Under the pieces are notes generated by a model. The model worked only from the letters and a program-made list of their open reading frames with translations. It was not told where the DNA came from and searched no databases. The position numbers and the translations under genes are program-made. Source: an uncultured Clostridia bacterium (GTDB lineage: Bacteria; Bacillota; Clostridia; Christensenellales; Borkfalkiaceae). Taken from it: a stretch of 38,986 bases of DNA. Positions 3,246 through 32,243 of the stretch are shown here, piece by piece. How positions within the stretch are numbered: position 1 is the stretch's first letter; each line of letters starts with the position of its first letter. The stretch lies in assembly GCA_944375795.1 (NCBI GenBank), contig CALWAU010000043.1:1-38986 (forward strand). The letters are read 5' to 3'.

Positions 3246-6200
3246 TCAGTTTTTCGCGTTGAGCGAAAAGAGATAGTAGAAAACCGCAAAGAGAATGATG
3301 TTGACGAGATAGATGACGGGCAAAATTACGTACGCGAGCAATTCGCGGGGCTGTTTGAGGTCCGCTTTGAGATAGACCGCCACCATGCTGACGACGATGA
3401 CGCCTATCACGAAGATGATGGAGGCGTTGAGGAGATATCCCGGGTGTTTTCCCCGCCTCGCCTGGGGGCGATAACCGCAGGCATAGAGGACGGTGCACAG
3501 CAGGAAGCCCGCAAGTCCCACGCCGCAGCCCACGGCCGGATACAGGCCGGAAACGTTCAGCCTGTCCTTGACGAAGAAGATGACCAGGCTTTCGGCCAGA
3601 ATGATGCAGAAAGTGATGAGGGCGGATTTGAAGAGGGTCAGCCCCTTGTTGAAGAACGCGGGGGCGGAGGCCGGCGCCTCTGCTTTATTCTTTCCCGCAT
3701 CCATGCTTCCCGCCGTCTTTAAGCGGATGCCGTCCGTTTGGGCGCGCCGGCGGAGGTCGTCGAGATCGATTCCCTCCTGTTTTGCGGCCGCCGGAGCGGT
3801 TGCCGGCGCGGGCGCCGTTCGCGGTTGGGCGGGGCGGCGGTATTCGTTCTCCAAAAATCCCGAAGGGGCGGGATAGGGAACGCCGTAGCCGGGATAGGGG
3901 GGCTCGGCGGAGCCGTTCGCGTATTCCGCGGCATAGCGGCGGGAATTGAATTCGCGGCGCGCCGCGTTCAATGCGTTTTCGCGGCTTTCGAGGTCGAGCT
4001 CCCGCTCTTTGAGTGCGGCGAGCTGTTTGTCGATGTCCGCATTCTTTTCCTGATATTCCGCCGCGGTTTCCAGCTTTTTCTTTTCCGTTTCCAGCTGCGC
4101 CTTTTCAAATTCCGTCTTTTGTTTTTCAAACGCTTCCTTGTCTTCGTCCAGCTTGGAACGCTGCGCTTCCAGGGTCTGCTTTTCTTCCTCGAACTTTTGC
4201 TTTTCCGTCCGGAAGGCGTTTTGTTCTTCGTTGAACCGCGCGAGTCCGTCGTTGAATTGCTTCACCTGTGCGTTGTAGGAGGCGAGCCTGTCCGCAAAAT
4301 CGAACTGCTGCGCCGCCAGCGTGTTTTTCTGGGTCATGAAATCGAGCTGCTGCTGATTGTAGATGGCCTGCCGTGCGGCGAGATCCTTTTGCTGCCGGCG
4401 GAAAGCTTCGATGTCGTTTTGCAGCTGTTCGCCGCTGCGCATCAACTCGTTCTGTCGGGCGGCGAGGTCGTCCCGTTGCCTCTGAACGTCCGCGGCGGAG
4501 GTGTCCGTCTGCGTCTGTCGGCTCTCTATCGCCCGTTGGTGCTCCTGCAGGGAATATTCCTTTTCGGTCAGCTCGTAGTTTTTCTTTTCCAGCTCGTTCT
4601 GCCTTTCCGCAAGCTCTCTCTGCGCCGTTTCGAGGGAGAGTTTTTCCGATTGCAGGCCTTCTTCCCGCTCCCGTATTTCGTTTTCTTTTTCGTCGAGGCC
4701 GCGGCGTTCGGAGAGGAGGGCTTCCCGCTGTCCGTCGAGATCGGTTTTGTCCCGTTCGTATGCGGCGCGTTCTTCTTCCCATTCGGCGCGCAGGCGTTCG
4801 TATTCTTCCCGTTCTTCGGCGAGGGCATTCTCGCGCTCCCGTATCGCCGTCTCCCGCGCTTCCAGCTCCGTGGCGGTGCTTTCGACGTTTTCGCCGGAGG
4901 AACGGACGGTCTCGTTCATTTCGTCGATGGAACGCTCGCGGGAGGCGAGTTCCTCCTCCTTTTCCGCAAGCCGCGCTTTGAGCGCTTCCAGCTCCGCCGT
5001 CCTTTCTTCCGTTTCCCGCTTTTCCGCTTCGAGCTGCCGCATTTGCTCGTCGATCTGCGCCTGGCGGGCGCTGAGTTCCACGGAGCGGTTATAGTGCTCG
5101 GCGGTCTTGTTTTCGAGGTCGTTTTTCAGAAGATTGAGCGCTTCTTCCTGGGAGGAGAGGGCGTTTCTGAGCGTGGCGATGTCAGATTTCTTTTCCTCCA
5201 GCTCGGCGCGCATTTCTTCCAGATCTTCGCTCTCCGCCTGCCGGTCCTGCATGGCGGTCTTTTCTTCTTCCAGCTGCGTTCTCTCCGCCTGAATGCGGGA
5301 GAGTATCTCATAATTTTCCGCCGTTTTCCTGTCGAGTTCTTCGCGGAGCCCGTCGAGCGCGCGCGTCTTTTCTTCCAGCTCGGCGCGCTGCGTTTCCGCT
5401 TCGGCTTCCGCTTTCTTCAGTTTTTCTTCCGCGTTTTCGATTTCCCGACGCTTTTCTTCGAGGGCTTCTTCCGCCCGTTGCAGGGCAGTCTCCCGTTCGG
5501 TCAGCTCCGATTGCTTCGTTTCGGAATCGGAAAGGGCCTCGGAGAGGGCGTCCTCCCGTTCCGCGAGCGCGGCGCGCGCTTCTTCCAGCTCCTTCTTCTT
5601 TTCGTCGAGTTCCGCTTGCAGCTCGTCCAGATTTTTCTGTTTTTCGTCCAGCTCGGATTGCAGGGAGAGGAGTTCGGACTGCTTGTCCGCCAGTTCTTCG
5701 GTGCGGGAGGATGTCTCCGCGCGCACCTCGTCGAGCTCGGTGATCTTTTCGTCGATCTCGATTTTCTGCGAATCGATTTTCCCTTTCAGGGAATCGATTT
5801 CCGCCCGCTGCCGCTCGAGCTCGTCCTTTGCTTCGCTTATCTCGCGCTGCTTTTCGTTCAGCTCAAATTCCTTTGCGTCGATTTCCGACTGCTTGTCGGC
5901 CAGCGCGCGTTCCTTTTCCTCCAATTCTTCTTTCTGCGTGCGGATCTTCTCTTTCAGCTCGTTGAAATCCGATTTCTGCGTGCTCAGAGAGGAGCTTTGC
6001 ACGGAGAGGAGGGAGCGTTCCCGCTGCAGTTCGTTGCGGAGATTGTTGAGGGCGTTTCTTTCTTCCTCCAAGGCCGATTCGCGCGCGGCGAGCGTCTTTT
6101 TGATATCGAGCAGCTCTTTCTGCTTTTCCGTGATAAAGGAAAAGTCGTAGTGGGCGTTGCCGTCCGAAATCAGGCTGTCGATGACCGTGCGGGAATATTC

Positions 6201-6563
6201 CCATTCGGACAAATCGCGCTGCGTCACCTCTTTTCCCTTTTCCGTGAGACGGAAATATTTCCGCCTGCCGCCGTTGGAAAAGTCCCCGTAATAGGATTCG
6301 ACGTATTTCAGGGATTCGAGGCGCTTTAAGGCGCTGTAAAGGGTGGGCTGTTTCAGGGTATACAGTCCGCCGCTCTTTTTCTCGATTTCGTTGATGATGT
6401 CGTAGCCGTACTTGTCCCCGTCGTACAGGCTCCGCAGAATAATGGTGTTGATGTGCCCGCGAATGAGATCGGAGCTTATCGTGGTGATGCCCTGTTCCTC
6501 CGCGCCGCCCGTCAGGGAGAAATCTTCCAGCTCGTCCACTCTCGTCTTTTCTTCCTGCGTCAT
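3246..6563 (-). CDS. PadR-type DNA-binding protein with giant coiled coil and C-terminal membrane anchor
   Basis: 1105 residues in three parts. (1) An acidic leader of about 30 residues, then a PadR winged helix at about 31-125: LIRGHINTIILRSLYDGDKY, GLYTLKQPTLYSALKRLES, GGRRKYFRLTEKGKE. (2) About 145-905: an almost uninterrupted Glu/Lys/Arg/Gln/Leu-rich coiled coil with repeated ELEEK/LDEKQ-like heptads. (3) A Pro/Tyr/Ala-rich linker, then four predicted membrane helices near 980-998, 1007-1031, 1044-1066 and 1076-1100, with a short cytosolic tail. Ordinary PadR proteins are 100-200 residues and soluble. The architecture implies a DNA-binding head held away from the membrane by a long rod, perhaps 110 nm if fully helical; that is inference. 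ATG follows AGGAGGG. A strong promoter and an operator-like dyad precede it. Confidence 0.88.
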   Translation of the reverse strand: MTQEEKTRVDELEDFSLTGGAEEQGITTISSDLIRGHINTIILRSLYDGDKYGYDIINEIEKKSGGLYTLKQPTLYSALKRLESLKYVESYYGDFSNGGRRKYFRLTEKGKEVTQRDLSEWEYSRTVIDSLISDGNAHYDFSFITEKQKELLDIKKTLAARESALEEERNALNNLRNELQRERSLLSVQSSSLSTQKSDFNELKEKIRTQKEELEEKERALADKQSEIDAKEFELNEKQREISEAKDELERQRAEIDSLKGKIDSQKIEIDEKITELDEVRAETSSRTEELADKQSELLSLQSELDEKQKNLDELQAELDEKKKELEEARAALAEREDALSEALSDSETKQSELTERETALQRAEEALEEKRREIENAEEKLKKAEAEAETQRAELEEKTRALDGLREELDRKTAENYEILSRIQAERTQLEEEKTAMQDRQAESEDLEEMRAELEEKKSDIATLRNALSSQEEALNLLKNDLENKTAEHYNRSVELSARQAQIDEQMRQLEAEKRETEERTAELEALKARLAEKEEELASRERSIDEMNETVRSSGENVESTATELEARETAIRERENALAEEREEYERLRAEWEEERAAYERDKTDLDGQREALLSERRGLDEKENEIREREEGLQSEKLSLETAQRELAERQNELEKKNYELTEKEYSLQEHQRAIESRQTQTDTSAADVQRQRDDLAARQNELMRSGEQLQNDIEAFRRQQKDLAARQAIYNQQQLDFMTQKNTLAAQQFDFADRLASYNAQVKQFNDGLARFNEEQNAFRTEKQKFEEEKQTLEAQRSKLDEDKEAFEKQKTEFEKAQLETEKKKLETAAEYQEKNADIDKQLAALKERELDLESRENALNAARREFNSRRYAAEYANGSAEPPYPGYGVPYPAPSGFLENEYRRPAQPRTAPAPATAPAAAKQEGIDLDDLRRRAQTDGIRLKTAGSMDAGKNKAEAPASAPAFFNKGLTLFKSALITFCIILAESLVIFFVKDRLNVSGLYPAVGCGVGLAGFLLCTVLYACGYRPQARRGKHPGYLLNASIIFVIGVIVVSMVAVYLKADLKQPRELLAYVILPVIYLVNIILFAVFYYLFSLNAKN

Positions 6564-6583: not shown

Positions 6584-6596
6584 TTTGTCTGACATA
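6584..6596. promoter_or_regulatory. Operator-like dyad in the rod-gene leader
   Basis: TTTGTC-T-GACATA is one base from the perfect dyad TATGTC-N-GACATA. It lies about 40 bases downstream of the predicted transcription start and 20 bases before the ATG. The same dyad occurs twice before the gene at 32244. PadR proteins commonly autoregulate, so this protein is a candidate to bind here. Confidence 0.45.
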
Positions 6597-6640
6597 GTAT
6601 AGGTTGTCTGCGAGAATACAATAAATATCTTATATATAGT

Positions 6641-32184: not shown

Positions 32185-32190
32185 AAAAAC

Positions 32191-32223
32191 TATGTCAGGC
32201 ATAATTTATATGTCTGACATAAT
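32191..32223. promoter_or_regulatory. Tandem operator-like dyads upstream of the lyase-family gene
   Basis: TATGTCAGGCATAAT (32191-32205) and TATGTCTGACATAAT (32209-32223) are 15-base direct repeats 18 bases apart. Each centres on the dyad TATGTC-N-GACATA, the second perfect and the first with one mismatch. The spacing, near two helical turns, suits two repressor dimers. I see no clear -35/-10 pair, though CATAAT boxes lie inside the repeats. The same dyad lies before the PadR rod gene. Confidence 0.5.
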
Positions 32224-32243
32224 ACTGAAAAGGATAAAATGAT

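Follow-up and report, generated by a model that had tools for sequence, protein, structure and literature searches.

The window, by which we mean the whole stretch of 38,986 nucleotides that was analysed, comes from an uncultured Clostridia bacterium of the Borkfalkiaceae and contains three short dyads belonging to one site family, the unit of which is the 13-bp dyad TATGYSNSRCATA. Two of them form a tandem site on the forward strand (32191..32221), of the type that is attributed below to the replication terminus. It comprises TATGTCAGGCATA at 32191-32203, which has one mismatch to the dyad, and TATGTCTGACATA at 32209-32221, which is perfect; their centres are 18 bp apart and the spacer reads ATTTA. 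The pair is placed between the stop of miaA (32184) and the start (32244) of a gene of the methionine gamma-lyase family. The third dyad, TTTGTCTGACATA at 6584-6596, again with one mismatch, lies between the start of the gene for a rod-like protein with a PadR domain, hereafter PadR-rod (6563), and a thioesterase gene from about 6807. Beyond these, the window contains no dyads at up to one mismatch. The positions of the three dyads and their location between genes are as a preliminary description of the sequence had reported. Its chance expectation of 0.09 conveyed their rarity correctly, but the figure was if anything too high, 100 dinucleotide-preserving shuffles having yielded a mean of 0.02 and a maximum of one. 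The window dyads are not due to chance.

The PadR-rod gene (3246..6563, reverse strand) encodes 1105 residues, in which a winged helix is combined with an SMC-like coiled coil and, at the C-terminus, with four hydrophobic helices. The PadR DNA-binding domain (PF03551, residues 42-115; codons 1-140 at 6144..6563, reverse strand) was matched at 60 bits against a cut-off of 27, and a hydropathy scan predicted four membrane helices at residues 980-1094 (3282..3626, reverse strand). An AlphaFold model of the N-terminus exhibits a PadR-type winged helix, with a mean pLDDT of 67.7 over 150 residues and of 72-95 per block in residues 31-120. The nearest solved structures among the matches listed for this domain are PadR proteins, and RTP is not among the best 50 matches listed for the model. 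The winged helix, the rod and the four C-terminal membrane helices were found to be kept in full-length orthologues from two genera (G015, 899 residues; G005, 954; G649, 689). In the family, the N-terminus was matched in 324 of 398 genomes, nearly always once per genome; the open frames that contain it mostly have a length of 550-1200 residues. Within the genus of the window, PadR-rod is present in 39 of 57 genomes, including all 12 near-complete ones.

A genome-wide scan for the motif, as proposed in the preliminary description, revealed 19 places at up to one mismatch in the window's genome versus 6 for a reversed control; two single matches inside genes, on contigs C79 and C116, look like chance. 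The tandem form, defined as two ATGYNNNRCAT dyads in an 18-bp register, occurs exactly at 8 places in this genome and its reversed control at none. It is present in 43 of the 57 genus genomes, where the control gave one match in one genome. Among 396 genomes sampled across the order, 15 contained a match, including 4 genus members and 4 other members of the family; several of the remaining matches, from outside the family, look like chance. The ATACC form, for which a named genome collection was scanned, returned 58 stretches, every one from uncultured Clostridia. We also built a model of 43 positions, R1, from 80 of 83 tandem elements, which matches the tandem site of the window at 32186-32225. 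R1 matches were found in 50 of the 57 genus genomes, among them all 12 that are near-complete, and across the family in 316 of 398 genomes; they are strong in one other genus, g28, referred to here as the second genus, and mostly weak in the rest of the family outside the window's genus.

The two genera differ in the architecture of the element. In the window's genus it consists of two dyads 18 bp apart, often with ATACC as the spacer, whereas the second genus mostly has one full dyad and a half dyad, GCATAGTAC. In the alignment of 80 elements, the arms of the tandem element, a 31-bp inverted repeat, covary as base pairs across the repeat (0.177 versus 0.117, a value reached by 0 of 500 shuffles), and base-pair covariation within each single dyad was not found. 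The cross-arm covariation could reflect a hairpin, conversion between the arms, or mirrored cooperative dimers. An inverted repeat with covarying arms, found both in and between genes, is also what a dispersed palindromic repeat of the REP or MITE kind would present, spread by a transposase and bound by no protein. We regard this as highly improbable, and as the least probable of the explanations considered here, given that the elements are confined to the terminus, as described below, that orthologous places are kept across genera while the middle letters vary, and that the second genus has single dyads. The distribution of the Y1 transposase expected of a REP/RAYT repeat speaks against it as well: a Y1_Tnp match was found in 21 of the 57 genus genomes and was absent from several site-rich ones, for example G005, G006, G007 and G015.

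With regard to the lyase gene, the comparison of leaders across related species that the preliminary description had called for showed the dyad to be conserved. At least one dyad lies upstream of the gene in 24 of the 25 readable genus orthologues, most of which have two to four of them in 18-bp register; among the readable orthologues, L084 alone has none. Two of the 27 genus loci (L097 and L101), truncated where the gene begins, were left out of this count. In some species (L047, L049, L086 and others), as many as four dyads follow one another before the lyase gene, strictly in the 18-bp register. The lyase leaders of three loci from other families contained no dyad element, and in two genomes of the second genus one polar dyad stands alone, 122 bp upstream of the lyase start.

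Sites of the same family were also found in quite different settings. Some lie between convergent genes, directly behind terminators (C2:140 and C77:2738), and recurring positions are behind an ABC-transporter operon, in the gap that separates the genes for a sigma factor and a pyruvate kinase, and at the end of an amylase gene. On three long contigs (G005:C5, G015:C10 and G649:C1), for which home-made gene calls were used, 11 of 41 strict dyads are inside genes and 3 of 41 between convergent genes. The sites are kept at orthologous places across species, whatever genes surround them and in any gene orientation. In the gene of an HI0933-like FAD protein, a site, often double, occurs in frame at a position that two genera have in common (L017:15894, equivalent to G000:C114:53893 in the window's genome; L109, L114, L127, L133, L134, L135 and L137; G649:C1:129746), which reads as a DNA-level constraint on a coding stretch. 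The preliminary description had held that a motif frequent inside genes would speak against a regulatory role; intragenic sites do exist, but they are themselves conserved.

These settings bear on whether the sites form an ordinary regulon, in which the PadR protein would control the lyase gene and its own gene from promoter operators. The conserved sites before the lyase gene and in the PadR-rod leader, together with sites before glgB and glgA, are what such a regulon would predict. We nevertheless consider it very improbable: the sites do not keep to the promoters of target genes, as they would in a PadR regulon, orthologous sites being found between convergent genes, past terminators and inside genes, and they are confined to the terminus, with an orientation that is set by the replichore and flips in the second genus. 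For the same reasons, the earlier suggestion that one regulator controls both genes was left unsupported. A glycogen and lyase regulon, considered because glg genes adjoin sites, was dropped, since sites also occur past terminators, within genes and in the surroundings of the terminus. The lyase gene is preceded by a site because it is near the terminus, and the glg sites are explained by the glycogen cluster of the window's genome adjoining the dif-like site described below.

Computation places the sites near the terminus. The R1 matches (E up to 0.1) of each of eight contiguous genus genomes are restricted to two contigs, or to four in G007, and the contig carrying dnaA is free of matches in all eight. 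In G005 and G015, one of these site-bearing contigs contains the point at which GC skew and gene strand change sign, near 190 kb and near 40 kb, respectively, and this flip is surrounded by the sites. In G005, 6 of 7 site loci are within 139 kb of the 1.7-Mb genome, if contigs C5 and C6, which like the others are MAG fragments, are assumed to join; in G015, 5 of 6 are within 130 kb. Clustering, here of single dyads, is also evident in the second genus. In G649, 380 kb of the flip contig contain 22 dyads, 10 of them no more than 50 kb from dif, compared with 2 dyads in 280 kb drawn from the starts of 14 other contigs, and eight permuted patterns gave 0 to 2 matches on the flip contig. In G658, 12 strict dyads were found in 140 kb around the skew flip.

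A gene for an Xer-type recombinase is located at the GC-skew flip in all four genomes read (G005, G015, G649 and G658). Comparison of the gaps adjoining this gene led to a dif-like site beside it, in which a 6-bp centre separates two inverted arms, resembling AACTATTCGTAAAA-N6-TTTTACGAA. On every contig it is the top-scoring match, and G015 contains one further match, a weaker one. The putative dif is at G005:C5:195449, G015:C10:42618, G649:C1:109187 and G658:C1:42964, and at G000:C114:19857 (L016) in the window's genome. It differs from the usual XerCD dif; the canonical dif consensus, tried as well, gave a single chance-like match (17/22), in G015. In the gap between the amylase and Xer genes, an extra short repeat of the CATTCTGAGCG...GAAGAATCCC type adjoins the tandem site in L118 and L142, both of the second genus. 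The Xer gene and the dif-like site at the flip confirm the location of the terminus independently, and the sites are very probably a family that marks it.

As for the protein that binds them, the PadR protein, already named as the obvious candidate in the preliminary description, is borne out as the best one by its leader and by the location of its gene, which shares a chromosomal region with the sites. The leaders of 21 of 30 genus orthologues contain a dyad-like pair 20 bp apart, with the consensus TATATCTGACATAGTACTACTATGTCAGACAAA, versus 0 of 30 control windows (33-bp pair in a fixed window, counted at a score of at least 16). The remaining 9 leaders lack a good 20-bp pair, and the window's own is one of them: its pair (6584..6616, reverse strand), a putative self-regulation site, has a weak score of 13 and comprises the good dyad at 6584-6596 and a degenerate one about 20 bp further from the gene, so that just one of the two is well kept. 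The gene carries a site probably because the binder regulates its own gene; judging from this variant leader site, PadR-rod is probably self-regulating, as had been supposed earlier.

PadR-rod and the sites share a contig in eight genomes (G005, G006, G009, G015, G017, G033, G052 and G056), and in G007 the gene is on a small contig, C44, apart from the sites. Mismatches between protein and sites in the genus come from incomplete assemblies, 14 with sites only, 3 with the protein only and 4 with neither. The four with neither (G025, G028, G035 and G040) are 63-80% complete; they may either lack their terminus contigs or belong to a lineage in which the system was lost. In the family, PadR-rod is more widely distributed than strong R1 matches are. 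This imperfect agreement over incomplete genomes would suit a different reading, in which the same terminus-marking family has another binder and PadR-rod is a neighbour whose leader happened to gain sites. We find that reading unlikely, the leader pair being kept in 21 of 30 orthologues, PadR-rod being single-copy in the region, and the half-sites fitting its DNA-binding domain. PadR operators are described as ATGT/ACAT half-sites with 8-10 bp between them (PMC3506622). LmrR and PadR resemble the present case in DNA-binding domain, in half-sites and in probable self-regulation; here, however, the half-sites are 3 bp apart, the domain is joined to a rod as well as to four membrane helices, and the sites are set by chromosomal position rather than by a target promoter. 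PadR-rod is the likely binder of the sites.

Most dyads of G649 have the half dyad GCATAGTAC on one side, and this side changes at dif. To the left, all 7 decided dyads have the half dyad in front (7:0), and to the right it follows in 11 of 12 (1:11); three dyads are undecided, and the p value of 1.6e-4, like the other one given for polarity, overstates independence, because orthologous sites are common to several species. In G658, which shares sites with G649, the ratios on the two sides of the skew maximum are 4:1 and 0:5. For the window's genus, 79 elements (some from the second genus) were considered, of which 71 had an absolute skew above 0.05; 54 of these 71 had a readable spacer orientation. 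The orientation of the ATACC spacer agrees with the local skew in 40 of these 54 (p 4.8e-4, with the same overstatement of independence) and opposes it in 14, and the dyad that an incoming fork meets second is nearer the consensus in 31 elements versus 15, a weak difference. The sites of the second genus are oriented relative to the terminus, whereas polarity in the window's genus is only statistical.

Polarity of this kind raises the main alternative to our preferred reading, a polar replication fork trap of the RTP/Ter type, in which PadR-rod dimers on the weak and strong parts of a site would let terminus-bound forks pass and stop outgoing ones. The reversal of orientation at dif, the fact that incoming forks in the second genus meet the half dyad first, and the spacer and consensus biases of the window's genus are all in its favour, as are several parallels. 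In Bacillus subtilis, nine ter sites are reported to span about 10% of the chromosome; each consists of an A and a B repeat, inverted and imperfect, and a fork is arrested if it meets the stronger B side. The rtp and tus promoters each contain a ter site (PMC13220808, PMC10331603), and PadR dimers have been reported as RTP-like (PMC3506622). Around dif, the sites described here likewise span about 10% of the chromosome, with opposite orientation on either side; the two inverted repeats that make up a site are imperfect and differ in strength (weakly so in the genus), and the promoter of the candidate binder also carries a site. In contrast to Ter/RTP, the candidate binder is 5-10 times longer and predicted to be membrane-anchored, and the second genus has about 20 sites over 290 kb. 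We consider a fork trap somewhat unlikely, as some elements are nearly symmetric, the polarity of the genus is a statistical one with 14 of 54 elements against it, and a long rod with membrane helices would be needless.

The organisation of the sites also recalls matS/MatP of the E. coli Ter macrodomain, in that a 13-bp palindrome is repeated at the terminus, in and between genes, and depleted elsewhere. The matS site has the sequence GTGACRNYGTCAC, and the consensus here is TATGYSNSRCATA instead. Because the site sequence differs, we do not assign the sites to matS/MatP. The candidate binder, with a PadR winged helix, a rod and membrane helices, is different too, the sites are polar and often paired, and the organism belongs to another phylum. 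The MatP binder is thought to bridge sites and to link them to division, which is the role proposed for the candidate binder here. There are 23 matS sites in 800 kb (PMC3330122), and MatP is described as restricted to Enterobacteriaceae and Vibrionaceae (PMC7188993). ZapT of Caulobacter, a regulator-like protein of the MerR family, is reported to bind near the terminus, mostly in ORFs, with no consensus site (PMC7188993). It shares with PadR-rod the combination of a regulator-type protein and terminus-proximal sites, but it is of the MerR family and the account cited describes no membrane helices. In the open-licence PMC literature, we found no paper joining PadR proteins with the replication terminus as sites and binder.

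The best explanation as a whole, which we judge to be reasonably probable, is that the sites mark the terminus and are bound and organised by PadR-rod; the binding and the mechanism are what we infer from the features described above. PadR-rod would contact the sites through its N-terminal winged helix and would repress its own gene via the variant leader pair. Its coiled coil and membrane helices may link scattered sites to each other and to the membrane or the division site, by which the terminus region would be organised and anchored with a MatP/matS-like effect, and there may perhaps be a polar action on forks or DNA pumps in addition. A membrane-anchored organiser is favoured over a fork trap because PadR-rod has a rod and membrane helices, and such tethering may be its main job, although we propose this with some reserve. 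More tentatively still, a single PadR-rod might do the work of the E. coli protein chain, in that it would bind polar sites around dif, bridge them by its coiled coil, fix the terminus to the membrane by its four helices and possibly gate forks. It would then represent a third, independently evolved terminus system with an RTP-like fold, beside MatP/matS and the fork traps.

MatP and the known fork traps are phylogenetically narrow; the latter are described as limited to a few groups (PMC10331603). For gut bacteria of a common group, the present analysis provides a sequence-defined terminus mark together with a named candidate for its binder, a protein of striking architecture. If the proposal is true, it would account for the presence of an SMC-like rod and membrane helices on a PadR 'regulator', and the sites would serve as a sequence marker for the terminus in draft genomes.
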